NCBI GenBank assembly: GCA_031275485.1
Contig: JAISOS010000005.1
Coordinates: 1 to 37,155, forward strand
Source: Clostridiales bacterium
GTDB lineage: Bacteria; Bacillota; Clostridia; Christensenellales; JAISNN01
DNA: 37,155 nt
Reading direction: 5' to 3'
Every line of letters begins with the position of its first letter. The stretch's first letter is position 1. Positions 3,011 through 36,089 of this stretch are shown here, piece after piece. Under the pieces are notes generated by a model. The model was not told the DNA's origin. It worked only from the letters and a program-made list of their open reading frames with translations, and ran no database searches. A program made the translations under genes and the position numbers.

Positions 3011-5062
3011 ATGATAAAAGCGAATCTTAAAGGATTAATATTTTCGGTAACGGTCGCGGCATGCGTTTTATCCGCGGTGTTTTTTGTCGCTCCCGGCGGC
3101 GCGTGCGGTTTTTCGTCGGCAACTGATACGGATACGTTTTCGGGCGGCGCCGCCGTTATAGCGGCAGATTCTGACGGAACGAAATTTGAGGAAATTATAA
3201 GGAATTCCGTAATCTTTAACAATACGGAAAGATATGTATACGCGCCGGACGGATTGATTAAGCCGTCGGTTTTAGCGGCGGAAAATGCGGACGGATACGC
3301 CGTAACCTTTATCGCTTGCGATACGGAAGGGCTTGTCCATGCGGGCAGGCATACCGTAGGATTTACCTTTCGTATTGAAAAAGCAACCGAAAGCTATGAT
3401 TTTACGGGTACGTACTATACGGAATACGTAATAGGTCCTATGCCGATAAAGTTTGAAATTAAACGCGAGGCGGGTAAAATTACCGTAAAAAATCCTTTGC
3501 CGGATACGCGTTATCGTTTGCTTTACGGCGGCGATGTCGGCGAATGGCAGACGGAACCCGTGTTTTACGGGCTTGACGATTCGGCGGAATATACCGTGGA
3601 AGCGATGCCGACGGGTTACGCCTCTACGGATTATTTACTCGACAGAACGAGTGTGCGGGCGGCGGCGATAAAAAACGAAATAATGATTTGGGCGATAGTC
3701 GCCCTTGCCGTCGCGGCGGCGCTCGCGACGGTTTTTGCGGCGTCTGGATTCAAAAAGAAGAAGACCGCGCCTTCCTCGCCTACGGGAATGGTTCCTTACG
3801 GACCTACGGTACCCATGCCGGGCTATTCCGTTCCGGGCTTCCCTTCGCAAACGCAAGGGCGAACGAAGAACGCGCAAGCCGCGAATAAGGGCAAAAAAAC
3901 GGCGCAAGCAAAGAGTGCGAATGCCGCAAAGAGCGCAAAGCCCGCTAATACCGCAAATGAAACGAAAGCCGTTGCGGCGTCTTTGAAATCCGTAAAGCCG
4001 ACCGCTTCGAAAGCGAAGCCGCAGGAGCGCGCGCAGGCTACTCCGGTAAAAGTCGAAAAAAATCAAAAAGCAGAGTCAAAAACCAATAAGTTGAAAGAAA
4101 GCAAAACTATGAAAAACGAACCGGCGCAAGCCGAATTTGCCGAGTACGAAAAAGCGTTGAAGACCGCGAAAGAGACTCGTGCGGCGGCGGCTTCGGCGGT
4201 AAAAGCCGAGCGCGAAATCGGTGAGCGCGAGTTGAAGAACGCGCGGGCGGGAAACGCCGTGAAAATAAAGGCGGCAAGAGCCGGGCAGGCGGCGGAGAGG
4301 CTTGCGATAAAGGACGCGAAAGCCGTGATCGCCAAGACGGTAAAGGATGCCAAAAAGGCCCGCGCAAAAACGTTAAAGAATATAAAAGCCGCACGTGCGG
4401 CGTTAATCAAGACGGAAAAGGCCAAACAGGCGGTCAAGGCGAAAGCGATAAAGGACGTCAAGACCGGGCAAGTCCGCGCCGTAAAGAACGCGAAAGCCGC
4501 CCAAGCCGCCCAAGCAAAAGCGATAAGGGCGGAGCAGCTTGCGCAAGGCAAAGCGATAAAAGCGGCGAAGACCGCGCAGGTCAAGGCGATAAAAACCGCG
4601 AAAGCGGCGGAAATAAAGACGGAAAAATCCTTTAAAAAAGCGAAAGTCATGGAAACCGCGCAGGCGAAAGCCGCGAGCAACGCGGAGGCCGCGTCGGTCA
4701 AAACGATACGCGCCATACGCGCCGCGTCCTTAAAGAGCGCGAGGAATACGGACCGCGCTCAGCCGAAAGCGGAAAAAGCCTATTCGTCAAAGCCGGTTGC
4801 GCAAGCCGTTTCGGGAAAAACGGCGGCATACGGAACGCAGACCTTTCAAGTGAACGCCTCCGCTTACGGAGTTCAATCCATACCGCTTCAAAACGCGCGG
4901 ATTTTGCCGGCGGCAGGCGGAGCTAAGCTCGACGTCAAATCCGTGTCGGCTGGAGGAAAGGATACGGGTTCGCTATTGTCGGCAAGCTTGCCTGTCGCGC
5001 CGCGTTACTCGGGCGGGAACGGAACCGAAAGGGTTTCCGCAACGGGCGGTAAAGCGAAATAA
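3011..5062 (+). CDS. Membrane-anchored protein with extracellular module and long Lys/Ala-rich cytoplasmic tail
   Basis: Not assigned to a known family. A signal peptide (about 1-32) leads to an extracellular part (to about 222). One transmembrane helix follows at about 225-245, ending in FKKKK. The rest is cytoplasmic by the positive-inside rule. Residues 255-285 are Pro/Gly/Tyr-rich. Residues about 285-595 are almost only Ala, Lys and a few polar residues, with irregular repeats such as KAIKAAKTAQV. They are probably helical and strongly basic, like TolA linkers or histone H1-like tails. Residues 57-150 begin with an IIRNSVIFNNTER motif that recurs just outside the membrane helix of the next protein, so the two are paralogous there. 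The tail might bind nucleic acid or an acidic partner; this is inference. The ribosome site GAGG sits only 2 bases before the ATG, which is tight. Confidence 0.75.
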   Translation: MIKANLKGLIFSVTVAACVLSAVFFVAPGGACGFSSATDTDTFSGGAAVIAADSDGTKFEEIIRNSVIFNNTERYVYAPDGLIKPSVLAAENADGYAVTFIACDTEGLVHAGRHTVGFTFRIEKATESYDFTGTYYTEYVIGPMPIKFEIKREAGKITVKNPLPDTRYRLLYGGDVGEWQTEPVFYGLDDSAEYTVEAMPTGYASTDYLLDRTSVRAAAIKNEIMIWAIVALAVAAALATVFAASGFKKKKTAPSSPTGMVPYGPTVPMPGYSVPGFPSQTQGRTKNAQAANKGKKTAQAKSANAAKSAKPANTANETKAVAASLKSVKPTASKAKPQERAQATPVKVEKNQKAESKTNKLKESKTMKNEPAQAEFAEYEKALKTAKETRAAAASAVKAEREIGERELKNARAGNAVKIKAARAGQAAERLAIKDAKAVIAKTVKDAKKARAKTLKNIKAARAALIKTEKAKQAVKAKAIKDVKTGQVRAVKNAKAAQAAQAKAIRAEQLAQGKAIKAAKTAQVKAIKTAKAAEIKTEKSFKKAKVMETAQAKAASNAEAASVKTIRAIRAASLKSARNTDRAQPKAEKAYSSKPVAQAVSGKTAAYGTQTFQVNASAYGVQSIPLQNARILPAAGGAKLDVKSVSAGGKDTGSLLSASLPVAPRYSGGNGTERVSATGGKAK

Positions 5063-14781: not shown

Positions 14782-15312
14782 ATGAAAAAGTTTTTCACTG
14801 AATTTAAAAAATTCATAAGCAAGGGCAACGTTGTGGACCTCGCGGTCGCCGTCATAATCGGCGCGGCGTTCGGCAAAATCGTCACGAGCCTTGTGGACGA
14901 CATAATCACGCCGCTGACGTCTCTACTTATAGGCGGCATAGATTTTGCGGAATTGAAATGGGTTATAGTCTCGGCGGGCGAAACGACCGCCGAGATCGCG
15001 TTGCATTACGGGCGGTTTTTGAAGAATATTTTAGATTTTCTTATCATAGCGTTTTCTATTTTTGTGATTTTGAGATTCTACAACAAAGCCAAAGCGAACA
15101 TTCAAAAACAGTTTAACGAGAGCGAGCAACGGCTGAAACGACTTTTGTCGAATGACGGCAAAAAAGCCGCCGCCGAAAATAACGGCGCGGAAAACGCAAA
15201 AAGCGCGGCGGACGTGGAAAACGGGGAGCGAAAAACCGCCGCAACGAATGAAAATCTGGAGATTTTAAAGGAAATAAGAGATTTATTGAACGATAAATTG
15301 ACGAAAAAATAA
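14782..15312 (+). CDS. mscL: Large-conductance mechanosensitive channel MscL
   Basis: This pentameric channel releases solutes on hypo-osmotic shock. The N-terminal helix and TM1 are typical (GNVVDLAVAVIIGAAFGKIV, residues 15-34). TM2 lies at about 78-100 (NILDFLIIAFSIFVILRF). The C-terminal bundle helix ends the protein (EILKEIRDLL). At 176 aa it is longer than the usual 130-150. The surplus is an Ala/Asn/Lys/Glu-rich segment at about 128-160 (AENNGAENAKSAADVENG) between TM2 and the final helix. The ribosome site is weak: GGGAGG lies 14 nt before the ATG. It appears monocistronic. Confidence 0.93.
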   Translation: MKKFFTEFKKFISKGNVVDLAVAVIIGAAFGKIVTSLVDDIITPLTSLLIGGIDFAELKWVIVSAGETTAEIALHYGRFLKNILDFLIIAFSIFVILRFYNKAKANIQKQFNESEQRLKRLLSNDGKKAAAENNGAENAKSAADVENGERKTAATNENLEILKEIRDLLNDKLTKK

Positions 15313-22547: not shown

Positions 22548-25055
22548 ATGGAACTTAAAGAAATTTACAAACCGAAAATCGACGCCGCGCCGAACGCGGA
22601 CGGCATAATTTCGGAAGGCGGCTTTCGTTTGACGGTTATTTCGGACGGGCTTTTCAGGGTGGAGATTGACGACGGGTGCGAATTTTTAAATTTGCCGTCG
22701 CAGAGCGTTTGGCGCAGAGACTTCGGTAAGACGGCTTTTAAAGCGGAAAGGCTCGGCGCGAAAATCCGCATAGAAACGGACAGGGCGGTTTTGATTTTCG
22801 ACAAGAGGCTGAATACGTTTAAGATTCTCTTGAAAGCGGAAAAAAATAGCGCGTCGGGTATGTTTTTAAACTGCGGCAATTTAAAGGGTACGCGGCGGAC
22901 TCTCGACGGCGCGGTAGGCGCGGTCAAGCTTGGGCGCGGCGTTATGTCGAAAAAAGGGATTGCCGCTTTCGACGACAAAAAGTCGCTCGTTCTCCGCGAG
23001 GACGGAATGTTGGAAAAGCGCGGCGCGTCAAGGCGTATGGATTTGTATATATTCGCCTACGGGAGCGACTATTCCGCCGCGCTCGTGAATTTTTACCGTC
23101 TGACGGGACAAAACCCTTTGCTACCGCGTTTCGCTCTCGGCAATTGGTGGAGCCGTTATCACGAATATACGGCCGAGGAATATCTTTCGCTTATGAAAAC
23201 CTTCCGCGACAACGGCATACCGTTTTCCGTCGCGACGGTTGATATGGATTGGCACGTTACCGACATTTCCAAGGAATACGGTAGCGGTTGGGCGGGTCAG
23301 ACGGGTTGGACGGGCTACACATGGAACAGAGAGCTGTTCAAGGACCCGATCGCGTTTTTGAAGGAATTGAAGGATGCGGGTTACAAGGTTACGCTGAACC
23401 TGCACCCGGCCGACGGCTGCCGCGCCTACGAGGATTACTACGGCGCGATAGCCGATTATATGGGCGTCGATAAGGAACAAAAGGAGCCGGTGCGGTTCGA
23501 TATGACAAATCCGCGTTTTATCAACGCGTACTTCGAGTTTTTGCACTATCCTTTGGAGCGCGAGGGAGTTGATTTTTGGTGGATAGATTGGCAGCAGGGA
23601 AAAAAGACCGCGGTAGACAATCTCGACCCGCTCTGGCTTTTAAATCACTATCACACTCTCGACAACGCCAAGAACGACTTGCGTCCGCTCATTCTCTCAC
23701 GGTATGCGGGTATAGGCAGTCACAGGTATCAGGTCGGCTTTTCGGGCGATACGTACATAAGCTGGCGTATGCTGAATTTTATGCCGTATTTTACGACGGT
23801 CGCGGCGAATATCGGTTTCACGTGGTGGAGTCACGACATAGGCGGGCATCATTTCGGCAAAAAGGACGGCGAGTTGTATCTGCGCTGGTTGCAATCGGGC
23901 GTATTCGGGCCGATAATGCGTCTGCACGGCACGAAGAACCGATTTATCGACAAGTCGCCTATGAAATACCGCGCCGACATAGCCGGATACGCCGTGAAAT
24001 TTTTGCGGCTCAGGCATAAATTGATACCGTACATATACACGATGAACTATCTCAGCCACGCGAAGGGCGAGCCGCTTTGCAAGCCTATGTATTACGCTTA
24101 CGGAAATCCCGAGTTTTACAAGAAAAAGTATAGAAATATCTATATGTTCGGAACGGAGCTCCTCGCCGCGCCGATTACCAAACCTGCGGACAAAGCGTCG
24201 AAAACGGGATTATCTTACGCCGAGGCGTTTTTGCCCGAGGGCGCGTGGACGGACATATTCACGGGGCGCGTCTATACCGCCGGCAAAGAGGGCGCGGCGG
24301 TGCGTATGTACAGGGATTTGGAAAGTATTCCCGTACTGGCGAAGGAGGGCGCGATTTTGATCACGGACGAAAAAGCCGAGACCGACACGTCCAACCCTTC
24401 GGATTTGCGCGTTACGCTATTTCCCGGGAGGGACAATGATTTCACGCTCTACGAGGACGACGGCGAAAGTATGCGCTATAAGGACGGCGCGTGCGTTACG
24501 ACGGAATTTTCTCTTCGCGGGGGAAGAAAAGACTTTACTCTGAAAATCAAGGCGCCCGAAGGCGACGTTTCGCTGATTCCGTCCGGCAGAAAATACGCCG
24601 TCGCGGTAAGGAACGCTCTGTCGGCGGACGTCTCCGCGCGCGTCTTGAAAGCAAGACACGAGATTTTCGCGCACGTCATGAAAATTGAGAGCGGGACTGC
24701 CGCAAATATTACGAAAACCGGAAACGAAACTACTGCGGACACGTTAAAATCGTTAAACGGAATTTCAGCGCACGCCGTTAAAGCCGGATGCGGGCTTTTC
24801 GCGGAAACGTATAAGAAAGACAGCGCGCTGGTTATAGAAATCGCGGGCGCGGACGCGTTTTCTGACATAGAAATCGTTTTTTCGAACGTCGTATACCGAG
24901 CGGACGACAAGGACGCCTACGTCTTTTCGGTCTGGGACCGCGTCGAGACGGACGTAACCAAAAAGAATATATTTTACAAGCTGTACAAGAGAAAAGGGAT
25001 AACGTTGCAAAGAGGACTGAAAAAAATAATCAAGGAAAAAGACTTTTTTAATTGA
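22548..25055 (+). CDS. GH31 alpha-glucosidase/alpha-xylosidase family enzyme
   Basis: This 835-aa cytoplasmic-type glycosidase has no signal peptide. The barrel starts at about 195 (LGNWWSRYHEYT). Asp347 in WWIDWQQG is the expected nucleophile, and Asp401 in VGFSGDTYISW is the acid/base. FTWWSHDIGGHHFG (424-437) and MRLHGTKNRF complete the active-site loops. It would cleave terminal alpha-glucosides or related sugars such as isomaltose or alpha-xylosides; specificity is not resolved. The C-terminal beta domain contains an unusual insertion at 691-756 made of six 11-residue units ending in Lys (ARHEIFAHVMK, TGNETTADTLK, SLNGISAHAVK and others). GGAGG lies about 9 nt before the ATG. It is monocistronic and flanked by repeats. 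Confidence 0.9.
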   Translation: MELKEIYKPKIDAAPNADGIISEGGFRLTVISDGLFRVEIDDGCEFLNLPSQSVWRRDFGKTAFKAERLGAKIRIETDRAVLIFDKRLNTFKILLKAEKNSASGMFLNCGNLKGTRRTLDGAVGAVKLGRGVMSKKGIAAFDDKKSLVLREDGMLEKRGASRRMDLYIFAYGSDYSAALVNFYRLTGQNPLLPRFALGNWWSRYHEYTAEEYLSLMKTFRDNGIPFSVATVDMDWHVTDISKEYGSGWAGQTGWTGYTWNRELFKDPIAFLKELKDAGYKVTLNLHPADGCRAYEDYYGAIADYMGVDKEQKEPVRFDMTNPRFINAYFEFLHYPLEREGVDFWWIDWQQGKKTAVDNLDPLWLLNHYHTLDNAKNDLRPLILSRYAGIGSHRYQVGFSGDTYISWRMLNFMPYFTTVAANIGFTWWSHDIGGHHFGKKDGELYLRWLQSGVFGPIMRLHGTKNRFIDKSPMKYRADIAGYAVKFLRLRHKLIPYIYTMNYLSHAKGEPLCKPMYYAYGNPEFYKKKYRNIYMFGTELLAAPITKPADKASKTGLSYAEAFLPEGAWTDIFTGRVYTAGKEGAAVRMYRDLESIPVLAKEGAILITDEKAETDTSNPSDLRVTLFPGRDNDFTLYEDDGESMRYKDGACVTTEFSLRGGRKDFTLKIKAPEGDVSLIPSGRKYAVAVRNALSADVSARVLKARHEIFAHVMKIESGTAANITKTGNETTADTLKSLNGISAHAVKAGCGLFAETYKKDSALVIEIAGADAFSDIEIVFSNVVYRADDKDAYVFSVWDRVETDVTKKNIFYKLYKRKGITLQRGLKKIIKEKDFFN
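24618..24815 (+). repeat. In-gene 33-bp repeat (six 11-aa units) within the GH31 gene
   Basis: Six consecutive degenerate 33-bp units encode 11-residue blocks with Ala or a small residue at position 7-8 and Lys at position 11. The frame is kept throughout. See the GH31 entry. Confidence 0.7.
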
Positions 25056-27913: not shown

Positions 27914-30427
27914 ATGGATATAAGCTATAAAAAAAGGAAAACTAACGACGAAAGCCTCGTCGCTTCGCTTGCGGAAAGCACGGGGCTGTCAAGGCTTGCC
28001 GCCGACCTTCTCGCGTCGCGCGGGATAGAAACGGAGGAGGATGCGAAACGTTTTTTGAATCCTTGCGCGGCGGATTTTTTGGATCCGTTTCTGATGCCCG
28101 ATATGCGCGCCGCCGTCGAAAGGATAGAGCGTGCGCTCAAAAACCGCGAGAAAATAGTCGTCTACGGCGATTACGATTGCGACGGCGTTTCGGCGGCGGC
28201 GATTCTGTACGATTTTTTTAGGGATAAGACCGAGACGTCCTATTATATTCCGTCGAGGAAGGACGGCTACGGACTGAGCGCGGCGGCGATAGACAAGATT
28301 GCCGAGAGCGTGTTTCCCGATCTCATAATTACCGTAGACTGCGGCGTTACGTCCGTCGGGGAAGTCGAATACATAAAGGAGCTTGGAATCGACGCGATAA
28401 TCACAGACCATCACACGCCGCAGGACGCCCTTCCCGACGCGCCCGTGCTGAATCCCAAGGTCGGAGGCTACGGAAACGAGCTTTGCGGGGCGGGCGTCGC
28501 GCTGAAGCTTGTCGAGGCTCTCGCGGGCTTTAAGGAAGCCGAGCGTTATATGGATATAGCGGCGATAGCGACGGTGGGCGACATGGTGCCCCTAACTGGC
28601 GAGAACCGCGCTATAACCGCGCTGGGACTTGAAAAGATGAACGTGAAAAGCAATATACGGAAGGGCTTAAAAAACCTCTTTTCCAGCCTGAAATTGGATA
28701 AAATTACGGCGTCCGACATAGCCTTCACAATTGCTCCGCGTTTGAATGCCGCAGGGCGCATGGGGCTTGCGGACAGAGCGTTGGAGCTTTTGGTGTCCGA
28801 GGACTATTTCAACATCGAATGTCTTATAAAGGAGCTTAACGCGGACAACGCCGAGAGACAGACCCTGCTTTCCGACGTCACGGACGACGTCTACGAAAGA
28901 CTTTTAGAGGAGGATTTGAACGCGTCCCGCTGTATCGTTCTCGCCGACGCGAGGTGGGACGGCGGCATACTCGGTCTGGCGTGTTCGAAGACGGCGGGCG
29001 AATTCAACCGTCCCGCGCTCCTTTTCACCGAAAAGGACGGCGTTTTAAAGGGTTCGGCGCGAAGCGTAGAGGGCATAAACATATTTGAAGCGCTGTCTGG
29101 TTGCAAGGGGCTTTTTACGGCTTTCGGCGGACACGCGCAGGCGGCGGGCGTAAGCTTGCCGCGCGAAAATTTCGCGGCGTTCAAGCAAAAAATCAACGAA
29201 TATATGCGCAAATACGGAAACAAACCCTTTCTGCCCTCCGCAGTATACGACGCAGCGCCTAAGGAAAAGCCCGATTTGGAGACGGTCAGAGAATTGCGCG
29301 CGCTCGAACCTTTCGGCGAGGGTAATCCCCGTCCGGTGTTTTGGTTTAAAAACCGCGAGATGCGCTTTACGCGCATAAAGGGCACGTCGCATATAAAGGA
29401 GCGAAGCGGAACTTTCGAGACGGTCGGCTTTAATATGGCGGACGGCGCGGAGCTTCTAAACAGCCTCGCCGAAAAAAATCTGTTCGCGACGGCGGACTGC
29501 TGCGCGTACAATAACGCGGAGTACGTCAAAGCGGTCATACAATGCTGTTACGCCTCGCCGCCCGAGGAATGTTTCGACAAGGTTCGTCTTTTAGAAGCGT
29601 ATCTGTCCGCCGCTGCGGCGAACGGGCGCAATTTAATTGTTCAAAACGGCGAAGAAATAAACGGCGCGAATTCTCCTAACGGCGGGGACGGAAACGGTTC
29701 GCTTACCCAAAACGGCAATATCGCATGCGGCGCAAATTCTCCGAACGGTAAGGACGAAAGAGGTTCTCTTATTCAAAATGATAAAAATGCGGGAAAAAAC
29801 GTTTCCGAGCGCGTAAAACGTTTTGAAAAGGACGGCGTTTCCGATATAATAAAGGACACTGATGAGATTTACGGCACGGCGTTCGTCGCTTTCGACGACC
29901 GCACCGCCGCGGAATTTTATAAAAAATTCCGTTCCGAATGCGATAAATTACTGCTGTTTTGCTACCGTGCGCCGGAATCGCGTAATCCGTATAACCGCCT
30001 GTTTTTATCGCCTAAGGATTTAAGGTTCAATTATTACGGCAGGGTCGTCTATCTCGACAAGCCGCTTTTCGATCCGACGGCTTATTCGTCCGCGCGCGGA
30101 ATATTCGTCTGTAGCGGAGAGAATCCGTTAGACGGCGCGCTTAGGTCGATCGGTTTGAACGGCGAGCGCATAAGGGAGCTTTATATCCGCATACGCGGCG
30201 GCATAAACGGCGGCGCGGAGGGGCTTCGCGGAATTTATTCGCAGTCGGCGGGCGACAAAAAATTTTCATATACGGAATTTGTCGCGGCTTTCGCCGTATT
30301 TTACGAGCTAGGGCTTATAGAAACGGGTAAAAACGGCGTTAAACTGAACGAAAAAAAGACGGATTTGGAAAATTCTTCTGTATACCGTAAATGTACCCGC
30401 ACGGCGGACGGAGAAAGCGGAAAATAA
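27914..30427 (+). CDS. recJ: Single-stranded-DNA-specific exonuclease RecJ
   Basis: RecJ degrades single-stranded DNA 5' to 3' in recombination, mismatch and base-excision repair. DHH-family metal motifs are intact: DYDCDG (86-91), VDCG (141-144) and TDHHTPQ (164-170). The DHHA1 motif is GGHAQAAG (405-412). An OB-like domain follows. The 837-aa length exceeds typical RecJ (about 560-800). Part of the surplus is a Gly/Asn/Ser-rich insertion at about 577-635, with a 22-residue unit beginning GANSPNG occurring twice. The ribosome site is weak: AGGA lies 13 nt before the ATG. It lies between secDF and relA as in many Clostridia, but apt is absent. Confidence 0.95.
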   Translation: MDISYKKRKTNDESLVASLAESTGLSRLAADLLASRGIETEEDAKRFLNPCAADFLDPFLMPDMRAAVERIERALKNREKIVVYGDYDCDGVSAAAILYDFFRDKTETSYYIPSRKDGYGLSAAAIDKIAESVFPDLIITVDCGVTSVGEVEYIKELGIDAIITDHHTPQDALPDAPVLNPKVGGYGNELCGAGVALKLVEALAGFKEAERYMDIAAIATVGDMVPLTGENRAITALGLEKMNVKSNIRKGLKNLFSSLKLDKITASDIAFTIAPRLNAAGRMGLADRALELLVSEDYFNIECLIKELNADNAERQTLLSDVTDDVYERLLEEDLNASRCIVLADARWDGGILGLACSKTAGEFNRPALLFTEKDGVLKGSARSVEGINIFEALSGCKGLFTAFGGHAQAAGVSLPRENFAAFKQKINEYMRKYGNKPFLPSAVYDAAPKEKPDLETVRELRALEPFGEGNPRPVFWFKNREMRFTRIKGTSHIKERSGTFETVGFNMADGAELLNSLAEKNLFATADCCAYNNAEYVKAVIQCCYASPPEECFDKVRLLEAYLSAAAANGRNLIVQNGEEINGANSPNGGDGNGSLTQNGNIACGANSPNGKDERGSLIQNDKNAGKNVSERVKRFEKDGVSDIIKDTDEIYGTAFVAFDDRTAAEFYKKFRSECDKLLLFCYRAPESRNPYNRLFLSPKDLRFNYYGRVVYLDKPLFDPTAYSSARGIFVCSGENPLDGALRSIGLNGERIRELYIRIRGGINGGAEGLRGIYSQSAGDKKFSYTEFVAAFAVFYELGLIETGKNGVKLNEKKTDLENSSVYRKCTRTADGESGK
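29663..29794 (+). repeat. In-gene 66-bp tandem duplication within recJ
   Basis: Two 66-bp units start at 29663 and 29729 (GGCGCGAATTCTCC and GGCGCAAATTCTCC). They have diverged mostly at silent or conservative sites and keep the frame. Confidence 0.8.
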
Positions 30428-30749
30428 AAGAACAAAAAATAACCGAAAATAATAGGAGTAATTAAAAAGACGGTAAAAACGGCTGAAACAGTGGGAAACG
30501 GTAAAAAGCGGTGCAAAAGCGGTAAAACGATATATAGAACGATGAAAAAATGACGGGAGAAAACGATAGAAAAGCAATAAAAAAACTATGAAAAAACCGC
30601 AAAAAGACGAAAAAACGATTGAAAAATGATAAGAAACTACAAAAAAACAGTGAAAACGATAGAAAAGCAATAAAAAACGGCAAAAAACGATAACAAACAA
30701 TAAAAATCGCGGGCGGTACGCGCCGCGCGTTTTCCGAAAAGAAAAAATT
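30428..30749 (+). other. A-rich, purine-biased spacer with degenerate repeats
   Basis: This 320-bp stretch is almost devoid of C and T on the plus strand. It is built of short blocks such as AAAACGGT and AAAACGATAGAAAAGCAATAA. The latter block occurs twice, 93 bp apart (near 30559 and 30652). No ORF on the plus strand, promoter or terminator is recognised. The minus-strand Phe/Ser-rich frames are an effect of the base bias. Confidence 0.7.
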
Positions 30750-32909
30750 ATGGACTTCGACGCTTTGATTGAAAGACTGAAAAGCATTTACGGCAAGCGT
30801 GATTTTGAAAAAATCATGACTGCTTTTGAGTTTGCCGAAAAAGCGCACAGAGGTCAAAAACGCGCCTCGGGCGAGGATTATTTTGCACATCCCTGCGCCG
30901 TCGTTGACATTCTCATAGATATGAAAATGGATGTGACCACGGTAATGGCGGCGTTTCTTCACGACGTTTTGGAGGACACAGCCGTAACCGACGCGGAAAT
31001 GGCGGCGAAATTCGGCGGCGAAATCGTTACGCTAGTAAAGGGCGTAACCAAGTTCGACAAACTGAAATTCGCCAACAAAATAGACGAGGAGGCGGAGAAC
31101 CTCCGAAAAATGTTTTTGGCGATAGCCGAGGACATACGCGTCGTCATAATCAAGCTTGCCGACCGCTTGCATAATATGCGCACCCTTATGAGCAAGCCCG
31201 AGGAGAGCCGCCGTCACACGGCGATGGAAACTCTGGAAATTTACGCGCCGTTCGCGGGGCGTCTCGGTATGTCGCAGATTAAGGTGGAGCTCGAGGATCT
31301 CGCCATGTACTATCTCTATCCGATCGAGTACGCCGACCTCAAAGCGCGCGTGCAGGCGAAGCTGACCGAGCGGCAGGAATTTATAAACAAGGTCTGCGCG
31401 GAAATCAAAGTTCGCCTAAACGAGATGGAAATAGACGGCGACGTGTACGGCAGACCCAAGCATTTTTACAGTATTTTCAACAAAATGCGCCGACAAAACA
31501 AAAAATTCGAGGAAGTTTACGACCTCATCGCCGTCCGTGTCATCGTAAACAACATCAAGGACTGCTACGCCGTTCTGGGCGTCATTCACACAATGTGGAC
31601 GCCCGTCCCCGGCAGGTTCAAGGACTATATCGCGATGAAGAAGGCGAATAACTATCAGTCCCTGCACACGACCGTATTCACGAAGTTCGGCGCGCTTTTC
31701 GAAATTCAAATCCGAACTAGGGAAATGCACGAAATAGCGGAGTACGGCATAGCGGCGCATTGGAAATATAAGAATCCGAAAGCCTTAGACGACGCGGAAT
31801 ACGGCGAGCGGCTGAATTTCATAAAAGGCTTTATGGAGGCGGAGGTCAGTCTCACCGATAACAAGGAATTTTTGGACATCGTGAAGACGGACATAGGTCA
31901 GCACGAGCTTTTGGTATTCACTCCCAAGGGTAAGGTCGTAGACCTCCCCGTAGGTTCTACGGGCATCGACTTCGCCTACAATATCCACAGCGAGCTTGGC
32001 AACAAATGCGTGGGTATTAAGATCAACGAAAAAATGGTTCCAATAGAGACAAAACTTCAAAGCGGCGACGTCGTCGAGGTCCTGACCAGCGCGAATTCGA
32101 AAGGGCCTAGCCGCGACTGGCTGAAAATCGTGCGCACGACGGGCGCGAAGTCCAAAATACATCAATTCTTCAAACGCGAAATGAAGGATGAGAACATAAA
32201 AAAAGGCAGGGAAATGCTCGAAAGCGAGGCGCGCCACAAGGGCTATTCCTTTTCGGAGCTGCTTGTCGGCGGACGAGACGAAGTGATGAAGCGCTATATG
32301 TTCACATCCGACGACGATATGCTCGCCTCCGTCGGCTACGGCGGAATGAGTACCAAACAGATACTGTTCAAGCTCATAGAGCATTACAAAAAAGAAAAGA
32401 AAAACGAGTACAAGACCTTGGGCGCGGACGCCGCCCTGTCCGTCGATAAAAAGGACGCGGTCGGCGGCGTTATGATAGGCGGCTACAACGAAAAAAACGC
32501 GAGATTCGCGAGTTGCTGCAACCCTCTGCCGGGAGACGCCATCGTCGCTTATATAAGTAAGGGCAAGGGCGTGGCGGTGCACCGCTCGGACTGCTCCAAT
32601 CTCAAAGGGCTTGACAAAGAGCGCATACGCGCGGTCGAATGGCCCGCCGTCATCTCCCACGATCTTACCGCCAATATACGCGTTACCGTCTTGGACAGAA
32701 AGGGCGTTTTTTCCGAGATTTCATCGCTCATAAACGCACTCGGTTTTTCGCTCGATTCGTTCAGCGGAAGTCTGACGGGCACGGATGCGGCGGGCGTTGC
32801 CAAGGGCGATATAAAATTCACCGTCAAAATCAAAAGCATGGAAGAGCTGACCAGCCTGCTTAATAAGCTGCGAAGCGCAAAAGACGTTATAGACGCTCAA
32901 AGATTTTGA
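30750..32909 (+). CDS. relA: Bifunctional (p)ppGpp synthetase/hydrolase (RelA/SpoT homologue)
   Basis: This enzyme makes and degrades the stringent-response alarmone (p)ppGpp. The HD hydrolase domain is intact: His47 in YFAHPCAVV, HDVLEDT (71-77) and KLADRLHNMRT (about 135-145). The synthetase domain follows, with RPKHFYSIFNKM and GRFKDYIAMKKANNYQSLHT. A TGS domain begins near VFTPKGKVVDLP, and an ACT domain ends the 719-aa protein. Both catalytic halves look functional, so this is the long bifunctional Rel type of Gram-positive bacteria. No ribosome site is seen before the ATG, which lies directly after the A-rich spacer; translation initiation may be unusual. dtd, usually next, is absent. 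Confidence 0.96.
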   Translation: MDFDALIERLKSIYGKRDFEKIMTAFEFAEKAHRGQKRASGEDYFAHPCAVVDILIDMKMDVTTVMAAFLHDVLEDTAVTDAEMAAKFGGEIVTLVKGVTKFDKLKFANKIDEEAENLRKMFLAIAEDIRVVIIKLADRLHNMRTLMSKPEESRRHTAMETLEIYAPFAGRLGMSQIKVELEDLAMYYLYPIEYADLKARVQAKLTERQEFINKVCAEIKVRLNEMEIDGDVYGRPKHFYSIFNKMRRQNKKFEEVYDLIAVRVIVNNIKDCYAVLGVIHTMWTPVPGRFKDYIAMKKANNYQSLHTTVFTKFGALFEIQIRTREMHEIAEYGIAAHWKYKNPKALDDAEYGERLNFIKGFMEAEVSLTDNKEFLDIVKTDIGQHELLVFTPKGKVVDLPVGSTGIDFAYNIHSELGNKCVGIKINEKMVPIETKLQSGDVVEVLTSANSKGPSRDWLKIVRTTGAKSKIHQFFKREMKDENIKKGREMLESEARHKGYSFSELLVGGRDEVMKRYMFTSDDDMLASVGYGGMSTKQILFKLIEHYKKEKKNEYKTLGADAALSVDKKDAVGGVMIGGYNEKNARFASCCNPLPGDAIVAYISKGKGVAVHRSDCSNLKGLDKERIRAVEWPAVISHDLTANIRVTVLDRKGVFSEISSLINALGFSLDSFSGSLTGTDAAGVAKGDIKFTVKIKSMEELTSLLNKLRSAKDVIDAQRF

Positions 32910-32943
32910 GGTTTTGTTTTTGTTGCAAAATATGCGGCGAAAA

Positions 32944-32969
32944 ATCGCATTTAAACGGCTAAATGCGAT
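32944..32969 (+). terminator. Hairpin after relA
   Basis: ATCGCATTTA pairs perfectly with TAAATGCGAT around AACGGC. T-runs come only some 12-20 nt later, so a terminator role is possible but not clear. Confidence 0.4.
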
Positions 32970-33093
32970 CAATTCATCTATTTTTATGCTATTTTTTTTA
33001 ATTCTTTAAAAAAGCGGCGTACTAAGCGGTGTATGGCGGGTATTATATTAACGGGTTTTTAACCGTGTTAATTCGTATATGTTCCGAAATATT

Positions 33094-33170
33094 GAAGTTT
33101 TTTGGAAAGGGGCGCGGGGGAAAGCCTTTTGTTCACAAAAGGTTTCCCCCGCATAGTCTTTTAAAAAATA
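33094..33170 (+). repeat. Dispersed palindromic repeat, copy 15 (best-preserved)
   Basis: GAAGTTTTTTGGAAAGGGGC, then GCGGGGGAAAGCC, the core TTTTGTTCACAAAA, GGTTTCCCCCGCATAGTC. The CATA flank faces the MBL gene. Confidence 0.92.
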
Positions 33171-33189
33171 TGAAAATCCCTTCTCCCGA

Positions 33190-33241
33190 AAAAAGGAATT
33201 TGCAATGGAATCTATAAAAAGGAATTTGCAATGGAATCTAT
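33190..33241 (+). repeat. 26-bp tandem duplication of a ribosome site and start codon
   Basis: Copies 33190-33215 and 33216-33241 are identical. Each contains AAAGGA, ATG and the next codons. The first ATG (33205) opens a 12-codon frame that ends at TAA 33241-33243, overlapping the true start (33231) in another frame. Confidence 0.9.
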
Positions 33242-33956
33242 AACTGTTGTTAACGCGGTATTGTCCGAGAACACGTATATCGTGTACGACGCGGATACGT
33301 TGCGCGGTTTTCTAATCGACCCCGGATCCGACGGGCGGAAAATCGAAGCGGCGGCGGCGCGCAAAGGCGTCAAAATCGAGGCGGCGCTGCTCACGCACGG
33401 ACATTTCGACCACGCGCTCTCCGCCGCGTATTTTCAGGCGAAGGGCGTCAAAATATACGTAAGCAAGGCGGATGCGGACAAAATAGAGGGGCATAGCTTT
33501 GATATGAGCCGCTTTTTCGGCAGGGAGTTCGTTACTCTCACGGCGGATTGCGTATTTGATTGTGATTATTTAAACGGCTTCGATGTGAAAGCCGCCGGCG
33601 GGTCTTTAAACGTTTCCGATATGAAAAATACGGGGAAAGAGCGGGAATTTATGTCGGTTTCGGACGGCGGTTTTTTAAACGTTGCGGGTATGAAAGCAGG
33701 GGTTATTTATACGCCGGGACATTCCAGGGGAGGCGTCTGTTTTTATTTTGAAAAAGAGGGCGTTCTTTTTTCCGGCGACACGCTGTTTTCGGACGGCATA
33801 GGCAGGAGCGACTTTTCGGACGGCGATTTTTTGAAATTGAAGGAGTCTATAACCGCCAAGCTGTTTTCTTTGCCTGACGAGACGGTCGTCCGTCCCGGGC
33901 ACGGCGAAGCCACCGCGATAGGACTTGAAAAGCGCAATAAGACTTTGTTTTCATAA
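33231..33956 (+). CDS. MBL-fold hydrolase (glyoxalase II-like, YcbL/YqgX type)
   Basis: This metallo-beta-lactamase-fold hydrolase likely acts on thioesters such as S-lactoylglutathione-like compounds, but the substrate in such anaerobes is unknown. Metal motifs are THGHFDHALS (His56, His58, Asp60, His61), TPGHSRGG (His164), FSGDTLF (Asp183) and RPGHGEAT (His224), all intact. It has 241 aa against about 205-210 usually. The extra segment at about 115-155 contains two similar blocks 23 residues apart (GGSLNVSDMK and GGFLNVAGMK). The ribosome site AAGGA is 7 nt upstream and duplicated. It is the first gene of a likely unit with the DUF3781 gene and hemZ. Confidence 0.88.
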   Translation: MESITVVNAVLSENTYIVYDADTLRGFLIDPGSDGRKIEAAAARKGVKIEAALLTHGHFDHALSAAYFQAKGVKIYVSKADADKIEGHSFDMSRFFGREFVTLTADCVFDCDYLNGFDVKAAGGSLNVSDMKNTGKEREFMSVSDGGFLNVAGMKAGVIYTPGHSRGGVCFYFEKEGVLFSGDTLFSDGIGRSDFSDGDFLKLKESITAKLFSLPDETVVRPGHGEATAIGLEKRNKTLFS

Positions 33957-33989
33957 TATTCCGAGAATAAAACGAGCGAGTTAAACAAA

Positions 33990-34250
33990 ATGAACGAATT
34001 GGTTTTAAATGCGGAGAAGATCCACACGACGCTTATGGGCGCGGAAAGAATAAAAAGAAATCTGCGTTTGCCGGAGGTGGACGTAGACGGAGTCGTTGAA
34101 TTTTGCAAGGATAAAATCAAAGACGGACGGAGCCGTTTTTATAGGCGAGGGAAAAATTGGTATGTCGAAATCGAGGATATAATCATAACGGTGAACGCGC
34201 GCGCTTTTACTGTAATAACGGCGCACGGGGGAAATCGGCCGGGAGAATAG
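33990..34250 (+). CDS. DUF3781 family protein
   Basis: This 86-aa protein resembles DUF3781 (Pfam PF12636), a small family of unknown function in Bacillota. Features recalled for the family are the KIHTTLMGAERIKRNL segment (10-25), CKDKI, and a GKNWYVEIEDIIITVNARAF core followed by TVITAH. It has no signal peptide or membrane helix. It lies 33 bp after the MBL gene and 156 bp before hemZ, so it is probably co-transcribed with both. The ribosome site is poor (a GAG stretch), which suggests translation may depend on the upstream gene. Confidence 0.75.
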   Translation: MNELVLNAEKIHTTLMGAERIKRNLRLPEVDVDGVVEFCKDKIKDGRSRFYRRGKNWYVEIEDIIITVNARAFTVITAHGGNRPGE

Positions 34251-34406
34251 ATCGGAAATCTGCACGCGTGAAAGAAAACGGCGGCGTTACGGAAAAAATA
34301 CCGCCGGCACGGCGCGGGAAGTTTGCGAAAGAATTGGAAAGAATTGCAAGAGTCGATAAGAGTTTATGAAAGTTTTTATACGGAACAACGTCGGAGATAC
34401 GGAAAA

Positions 34407-36089
34407 ATGCTTTTAGTGTGCCGGGAGGAATTCGCGAACGAATTGCGGGAATTGATAAGAGCCTTTGAAAATGCGGGCGCGTCGGAGAAATTAGACGACT
34501 GCCGCGCGGAAATCGACTGCGTTTACGAAAACGGCGAATTGACCGCGAGGGTCGAATATTACCGCGCTTATAAGGACGAAAAACCGTCGGGGAAAACGGA
34601 GTATAACGGCGTTAACATAAACGGCGGATTGGCGGAAAAAACCGAATGCGGCAACGTTCAAAAAAGCGGCGAGGCGGCGGAAACGGAATACGAAAAAACG
34701 ACTCTTATTTTGCGCGAAGCGGCATGCGTCGGGGCGATCGAGGTTAAACGCAAGACGAAAAGAATGCTAAAAAGGATTTTTTACGACGCGCTCTCGAAGC
34801 TTACGGGAGAAAATCTGCCTTACGGCTCGCTTACGGGTATCCGTCCCACAAAACTCGCCTACGAAATTTTAGAAAACGGCGGCGGCTACGAATATGCGGA
34901 GCGGGAAATTTCCGAAAAACCCTCTTACGAAATTTTGAAAAAGAATCAGGACGGCGGCGGATATAAATACGCCGAGCGCGTTCTCGCCGAATATTTCCGC
35001 GTGTCGGAGATAAAAGCGCGCCTGATTACGGAAATTATAAAAAATCAGGCGGGAATTTACGAGAAAAATCCGACGCTTTACGACGTTTACGTAAATATTC
35101 CGTTTTGTCCTTCGCGCTGCTCGTACTGTACGTTTTTGACCGCAGACATAAAACGCGCCGCAGGACTTATCGAACCGTATACAGAATATCTTTTGCGCGA
35201 ACTGGATTTGGCGTTTGAAATCTCGGGCGGCGCGTGCAACGCGTTATATATCGGCGGCGGCACGCCCACTGCCGTAGACTGCAAAACGCTTGAAAAAATC
35301 TTAAAGAAGGCGGCGAAGTTTTCTTTCCGCGAATTCACGGTCGAGGCGGGCAGACCAGACACCGTAACCGCCGAAAATCTCGCTCTGATAAAGGATTACG
35401 GCGCGGCGCGAATCTCCGTCAATCCGCAGTCCTTCAACGAGCGGACGCTCGGCATAATCGGCAGAAGCCACGGCGAAAAACATATTTACGACGCGTTCGC
35501 GCTTGCGGAACGTTTCGGTTTTTCAATCAACGCGGATATAATCGCTATGTTGCCCGGCGAGAGCGTGGATGATTTTTTGTATACCGTAAACCGCGCGGCG
35601 GCGCTTGGACCGCAAAATATCACCGTGCATAACCTTGCGCTAAAAAGGGGCAGTGGCCTTGTTTCGAGCAATTTTAAGCACGGTGCCGCCGCGGACGCGG
35701 GCGGCGATAACTGCGGCGGCTTTGCCGGGCGCGTCGGCGGAACGGCGCGAACGGTTTCGACGGTTCAGACGCAAGCGGAGCTTATGACGGACGGCGCTTA
35801 CTCGCTTTTAAAGGATGCGGGTTATTCGCCCTATTATATGTACCGCCAAAAGTATATGTCTGGGAACCTTGAAAATTGCGGTTATGCAAAGCCCGGCTTT
35901 GCCTGCGCGTATAATATAGACGTTATGGAAGAAACTCACTGCGTTATGGCGGTCGGCGCTGGCGCGATTTCTAAACGCGTAACGTCCGGCGGCAAAATCG
36001 ACCGCCAAGCCAATATCAAAGACGTCAAGGGATATATGCAATGCTTTTCGGAATTATACGCTAAAAAGAGAAGGTTTTTTTCAGATTAA
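34407..36089 (+). CDS. hemZ: HemZ-family radical SAM protein (coproporphyrinogen dehydrogenase-like)
   Basis: This HemN-related radical SAM protein is annotated in Bacillota as coproporphyrinogen dehydrogenase HemZ, though its true reaction is uncertain. ATG 34407 (GGAG about 10 nt upstream) gives the family N-terminus MLLVCREEFANELRELIRAF. The alternative TTG at 34323 adds 28 unlikely residues. LTGIRPTKL (about 142-150) precedes the cluster motif CPSRCSYC (Cys234, Cys238, Cys241). Then come YIGGGTPTAV and YMYRQKYMSGNLENCGY. At 560 aa it is longer than usual (about 480-500). Surplus segments lie at about 60-97 (NGVNINGGLAEKTE), about 152-192 (YEIL-x-GGGY-YAER twice) and about 424-455. Confidence 0.9.
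   Translation: MLLVCREEFANELRELIRAFENAGASEKLDDCRAEIDCVYENGELTARVEYYRAYKDEKPSGKTEYNGVNINGGLAEKTECGNVQKSGEAAETEYEKTTLILREAACVGAIEVKRKTKRMLKRIFYDALSKLTGENLPYGSLTGIRPTKLAYEILENGGGYEYAEREISEKPSYEILKKNQDGGGYKYAERVLAEYFRVSEIKARLITEIIKNQAGIYEKNPTLYDVYVNIPFCPSRCSYCTFLTADIKRAAGLIEPYTEYLLRELDLAFEISGGACNALYIGGGTPTAVDCKTLEKILKKAAKFSFREFTVEAGRPDTVTAENLALIKDYGAARISVNPQSFNERTLGIIGRSHGEKHIYDAFALAERFGFSINADIIAMLPGESVDDFLYTVNRAAALGPQNITVHNLALKRGSGLVSSNFKHGAAADAGGDNCGGFAGRVGGTARTVSTVQTQAELMTDGAYSLLKDAGYSPYYMYRQKYMSGNLENCGYAKPGFACAYNIDVMEETHCVMAVGAGAISKRVTSGGKIDRQANIKDVKGYMQCFSELYAKKRRFFSD
34860..34991 (+). repeat. In-gene 66-bp duplication within hemZ
   Basis: TACGAAATTTT begins units at 34860 and 34926. Each encodes YEIL, then GGGY and YAER. 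The second is slightly longer (NQD added), in frame. Confidence 0.7.

Follow-up and report, generated by a model that had tools for sequence, protein, structure and literature searches.

Duplicated in-frame inserts in housekeeping enzymes of a Clostridiales lineage and an 11.2-11.4-bp A/T rhythm in its inserts and spacers

Several housekeeping enzymes of an uncultured Clostridiales bacterium carry extra, repetitive, polar sequence, which raises the question of whether this sequence reflects adaptation of individual proteins or a process acting on the DNA of the whole lineage. The window analysed here is a stretch of 37,155 nucleotides, contig C13 of a draft genome of 2.03 Mb in 92 contigs. A preliminary description of the window attributed the extra length to internally duplicated in-frame inserts with a recurring 33/66-bp step and proposed a common expansion process. 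The features on which the question turns are as follows.

14782-15312: MscL gene, family confirmed by Pfam/NCBIfam.
15133-15261, plus strand: Asn/Ala/Lys-rich C-terminal linker of MscL, no period, length variable in relatives.
22548-25055, plus strand: GH31 glycosidase, 835 aa (PF01055).
24640-24860, plus strand: GH31 C-terminal insert region, 33/99-bp period.
27914-30427, plus strand: recJ, 837 aa (TIGR00644, 436.9 bits, over cut-off; DHH/DHHA1/RecJ_OB).
29642-29803, plus strand: RecJ insert, aa 577-630, with a 66-bp duplication and predicted disorder.
33231-33956, plus strand: MBL-fold hydrolase, 241 aa (PF00753; alignment).
33576-33665, plus strand: MBL insert, aa 116-145, 69-bp lag, pLDDT below 50.
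34323-36089, plus strand: hemZ, 588 aa (TIGR03994, 390.5 bits, over cut-off).
34584-34694, plus strand: HemZ insert 1, weak 45-bp period.
34875-34958, plus strand: HemZ insert 2, YEIL..GGGYEYAER duplicated at 66/75 bp.
35688-35774, plus strand: HemZ insert 3, Gly/Ala rich, without internal repeat.

Pfam/NCBIfam searches confirmed the family identities proposed for RecJ, HemZ, the MBL-fold hydrolase, GH31, and MscL. The interval of 29640-36089 originally assigned to the inserts holds for the first three but not for GH31 and MscL, which both lie outside it. The excess length is real. In alignments, the RecJ insert (577-635), the MBL insert, all three HemZ inserts, and the GH31 C-terminal insert are missing from same-genus and same-order orthologues, apart from the sister-species cases given below, and the full lengths of the MBL-fold hydrolase and HemZ compare with 190-210 aa in most relatives and about 473-508 aa in same-genus relatives, respectively. 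In AlphaFold2 models, pLDDT falls below 50 exactly at RecJ 577-630 and at MBL 116-145, with high confidence and an intact fold elsewhere in both proteins. MscL is the weakest case, as the length of its C-terminal linker varies across the order.

Internal duplication was assessed by comparing the DNA of each insert with itself against 300 codon shuffles. In the RecJ insert, 71 bp match at 72% identity with a lag of 66 bp (p<0.003), accompanied by a weaker 33-bp lag; in the MBL insert, 31 bp match at 84% with a lag of 69 bp (p<0.003). Lags of 45 bp in HemZ insert 1 (p=0.003), of 66 and 75 bp in HemZ insert 2 (p<0.003), and of 99 and 33 bp in the GH31 insert (p=0.017) likewise exceed codon-shuffle chance. 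The claim of duplicated inserts stands for these and fails for MscL (p=0.25), correctly described earlier as lacking an obvious period, and for HemZ insert 3 (p=0.94). In the MBL insert, GGSLNVSDMK is a degenerate copy of the native GGFLNVAGMK 69 bp downstream; the pair includes the conserved native segment itself, which indicates that the insert was seeded by duplication of adjoining gene sequence. One copy in HemZ insert 2 is apparently also a native conserved segment, which would place its origin in neighbouring gene sequence. In addition, a perfect 26-bp tandem duplication at 33190-33243 covers the MBL ribosome-binding site and start codon; it is recent and not a helical multiple.

Inserts of this kind could in principle derive from a dispersed in-frame insertion element, comparable to the Rickettsia palindromic elements/PARCELs, that spreads through genes, and many unrelated conserved genes do carry in-frame inserts. 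However, among 22 inserts compared, sequence is shared only in two short matches (24-27 bp) of low complexity, the inserts disagree in composition details and in length, and fold-back of the RecJ insert, the one checked, is unremarkable (z=0.44). We therefore consider such an element extremely improbable, a judgement that applies to the 58% of the genome sampled. A search against Rfam found no RNA families in the window.

To place the window in its lineage, statistics were gathered from about 1.19 Mb (58%) of its own genome (the window and L063-L142) and 0.53 Mb of sibling genomes. Controls were 1.34 Mb of Clostridia, consisting of RecJ neighbourhoods from 79 other genomes (L200-L278). The relatives compared are five same-genus species, with no second genus of the family in the sample, and RecJ identity to the nearest of them is about 59%. 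Genes were called mechanically (longest ORFs taken greedily, minimum 110 aa) and identically in all groups. At 45-80% identity, comparison of this genome with same-genus species gives 0.41 internal indels of at least 10 aa per 1000 aa, vs 0.04 in control pairs of the same identity range, an approximately 10-fold excess. They affect 14.3% of proteins vs 1.6% of control pairs (Fisher p=7e-7), and the difference persists in a matched set of genes having control homologues (4/16 vs 6/367, p=4e-4). Fifteen of the 17 internal indels fall on the side of this species. Duplications in the DNA of genes occur at 72 per Mb here and 113 per Mb in siblings, compared to 11 per Mb in controls (6-10 times the control level) and none in shuffled sequence. 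About 90% are in frame (56/62 here and 46/52 in siblings, whose list includes some overlapping loci that were removed for the lag tests below). These results bear out the proposal of an expansion process common to the lineage.

The inserts strike different genes in different species and are absent from most same-genus species and from other families. In the sister species G004, from which the sample is small, the MBL loop contains three near-identical tandem 45-bp copies (KTSEIRAADSKTDGD) unrelated to the insert of this species (L177/L147), showing that the same loop was hit independently. These 45-bp copies are among the most recent-looking expansions. The G004 RecJ has a 120-aa Asn-rich insert in its DHH domain and a 111-bp duplication in its linker. 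Different targets in each species and repeated events in one loop indicate a process that is repeated and loop-tolerant rather than gene-specific. The opposing idea, that every insert gives its enzyme a function such as partner binding, draws on the finding that prokaryotic low-complexity regions can be functional and conserved (PMC6821194). It is nevertheless very improbable here, given that the inserts are not conserved within the genus, that those in the same loop of sister species are non-homologous (MBL, RecJ), and that unrelated enzymes have a common polar insert composition of Gly/Asn/Ala/Glu/Ser/Asp/Lys. Both findings that would have spoken against a common process are lacking, as inserts are present elsewhere in the genome and same-length inserts are absent from relatives.

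The expansion extends beyond genes. Spacer DNA, whose fractions under greedy ORF calling are overestimates yet comparable between groups, makes up 26% of this genome, 27% of the small G004 sample, 15% of G003, and 9% of controls. Low-complexity segments per 1000 genes number 297, 541, 149, and 126 in the same order, such that the most spacer DNA (26-27%) goes with the most low-complexity segments while G003 lies near the control level. In this species, the duplicated copies are 70-85% identical in DNA, which indicates old duplications. Recent perfect slippage as the main present-day process was ruled out by the rarity of perfect tandem duplications; genes have almost no long ones, and in spacers the 11-bp unit alone stands out (9 vs 1.3 expected). 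Loss of mismatch repair was also rejected as a cause, with MutS and MutL both present. As a separate observation, the MutL linker between the N- and C-terminal domains is expanded (about 100-150 aa) in two genomes (G000:C34:29985-31976 and G004:C82:25595-27592), which belong to the two species richest in inserts.

The 33/66-bp step did not survive the wider sample. The shortest duplication lag in coding low-complexity sequence is 15 bp and the longest 147 bp; lags of 45 and 69 bp are the most frequent, 33 and 66 are not special, and the measured lengths ruled out the idea that inserts are multiples of 11 aa. About 11 bases make up one turn of the DNA helix, and the lags were tested for a preference for whole turns. 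Repeat domains named by eye (MORN, LRR, TPR, collagen-like, and InlB-type) and a CRISPR-like array were left out of these tests; the array, at L123 1-1267 (contig C62), has a 66-bp repeat-spacer period and mimics a repeat protein. Between spacer duplicates, lags concentrate at multiples of 11.2-11.3 bp (z of about 4). This holds for the 16 spacer cases whose G/C positions are 70% or more identical (p=0.003), which indicates that alignment of A-tracts alone cannot account for the matches. A preference for 11.2-bp multiples is present in the genes of this species (p=0.003), and sibling genes show no significant preference (p=0.3). For all coding lags the value is p=0.009, for a scan over periods p=0.07, and for high-identity coding copies p of about 0.06. 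A preference of duplications for whole helical turns is thus suggested rather than established.

The same rhythm runs through the base composition of the inserts. Two further features of the window are as follows.

30440-30710, no strand: spacer 3' of recJ, A-tracts about 10-11 bp apart (sequence; Tandem Repeats Finder).
4494-4602, plus strand: repeats of 33 bp (11 aa), Lys/Ala tail of ORF 3011-5062 (Tandem Repeats Finder).

The DNA autocorrelation of 253 low-complexity segments of this genome is highest near 11, 23, 34, 45, and 57 bp and lowest near 6, 17, 28, 40, and 52 bp. Out-of-frame lags of 10, 11, 14, and 32 peak too, indicating that copying of codon units alone is not responsible. The Fourier peak lies at 11.4 bp (z=12 vs codon shuffling), and a signal with z of about 5-7 at 11.0-11.4 bp persists in synonymous shuffles that hold the protein constant. 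Shuffle tests detected no such A/T wave in control low-complexity segments, and the synonymous signal at 11.2 bp was not seen in the smaller sibling sample; in other CDS of this genome its ratio is 1.14. Relative amplitude at the peak is 1.75 in inserts, 1.58 in spacers (at 11.2-11.4 bp), and 1.38 in other CDS, compared to 1.19-1.25 in the CDS and low-complexity segments of controls; control spacers reach 1.44, yet at 10.4 bp. The wave amounts to 2.07x in segments of genes with detectable duplication and 1.26x (z=2.7) in those without, which links duplication to phasing. The earlier 33/66-bp claim is therefore better expressed as a DNA rhythm of 11.2-11.4 bp passed through the reading frame, with 33 and 66 among its in-frame multiples.

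Because a hendecad of 11 aa corresponds to three turns of an alpha-helix, a 33-bp period could instead stem from alpha-helix geometry in amphipathic or coiled-coil inserts. Amphipathic helices give known short-range 10-11 bp signals (PMC4132750), and the Lys/Ala tail of ORF 3011-5062, with its 11-aa repeats, has the look of a coiled coil. This explanation is very improbable for the inserts at large, which are polar and Gly/Asn-rich; those of RecJ and the MBL-fold hydrolase are predicted to be disordered and do not follow the hendecad pattern, part of the signal persists with the protein sequence fixed, and the best period of 11.4 bp corresponds to 3.8 aa, not 3.6. ORF 3011-5062 itself has no Pfam match and is probably secreted or membrane-anchored, its tail possibly being a hendecad coiled coil.

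Spacers and inserts resemble each other in their A-tracts. Spacer A-tracts lie 11, 22, or 33 bp apart about twice as often as in resampled sequence, A-runs reach 40 per kb in inserts and 39 per kb in spacers compared to 23 per kb elsewhere in CDS, and the words AAACGG/AAAACG are common to inserts and spacers. Plain capture of spacer DNA was not supported as a source of the inserts, which in 5-mer profile come no nearer to spacers than other CDS do. Co-directional spacers of this genome average about 375 bp, and their A-tracts are denser on the coding strand (21.5 per kb, compared to 14.9 on the other), with some arrays almost one-sided.

Another account would require no role for phasing. Relaxed selection, for example in a small host-associated population, may let loop insertions persist, the 11-bp rhythm being mere bacterial background. 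Such neutral accumulation is in keeping with spacers that are expanded as well and insert lengths that are not multiples of 11 aa, and A/T periodicity of about 11 bp is known in many bacteria and in E. coli is strongest in spacers (PMC516772). We find this account credible though unlikely, as the wave in inserts exceeds that of other CDS of the genome and is absent from control low-complexity segments, and spacer duplication lags cluster at 11.2-bp multiples.

The model that we favour, with a probability of roughly 0.6, combines tandem duplication into tolerant loops with genome-wide helical phasing as a DNA process of the whole lineage. Stretches of genes of about 15-150 bp, including native flanking sequence in at least two cases, would be duplicated in tandem, presumably when recurring A-rich words allow slippage or recombine through short homology. 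Those that survive would mostly be in-frame products within surface loops or linkers, and their copies would drift to polar Gly/Asn/Ala/Glu/Ser/Asp/Lys sequence. Judging from the statistical signal, which includes synonymous positions, the inserts are shaped by the same DNA-level pressure that phases spacer A-tracts at 11.2-11.4 bp. With A-tracts at every helical turn, whole-turn duplications may be favoured, either through A-rich homology or through selection that keeps phase, and in genes the in-frame near-multiples of 33, 45, 66, 69, and 78 would then recur. A stronger form, which we put forward tentatively and hold to be possible rather than probable, is that chromosome helical phasing steers protein evolution: whole-turn gene duplications and insertions would be preferentially made or retained, so that DNA geometry partly sets the loop lengths and amino-acid order of inserts.

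The observation itself is real and lineage-wide, and while its parts are ordinary, their combination is unusual. A lineage that swells genes and spacers by duplication offers many independent events for testing the effect of phasing on indels. It is also a warning that repeat-rich enzyme inserts may be DNA-level by-products, not adaptations or domains.

Plasmodium and Dictyostelium proteins carry Asn-rich inserts that are likewise polar, repetitive, disordered, loop-located, and derived from tandem duplication. PMC6821194 describes prokaryotic low-complexity regions and intragenic tandem repeats with these same properties and stresses conserved regions, whereas the present ones are species-specific, lie in housekeeping enzymes, and exceed related Clostridia about 10-fold. 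Rickettsia palindromic elements/PARCELs (PMC2996958) are similar in adding in-frame peptides to many unrelated genes, but here there is no common sequence, palindrome (checked in the RecJ insert), or fixed length. A further close parallel is bacterial 11-bp A/T periodicity (PMC516772, PMC4132750, PMC7537859), which agrees with our data in period, bases, strength in spacers, and partly in synonymous positions. E. coli spacers have an 11.2-11.3-bp A/T period (PMC516772), cyanobacterial coding regions show 11-bp periodicity at codon positions 1 and 3 (PMC4132750), and 11-bp phasing has been suggested to be under selection (PMC7537859). Within the limited open-access literature, we found no paper tying this periodicity to protein inserts, and literature searches relating indel length to helical phasing returned nothing. 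Atzinger and Lawrence proposed that, where periodicity is selected for, some indels may be more likely to persist than others, a proposal left untested (PMC7537859), and the possibility that helical phasing steers proteins is close to that effect. Unlike the 11-bp periodicity described in these papers, that of this lineage also marks lineage-specific protein inserts, above the level of the rest of the coding sequence.
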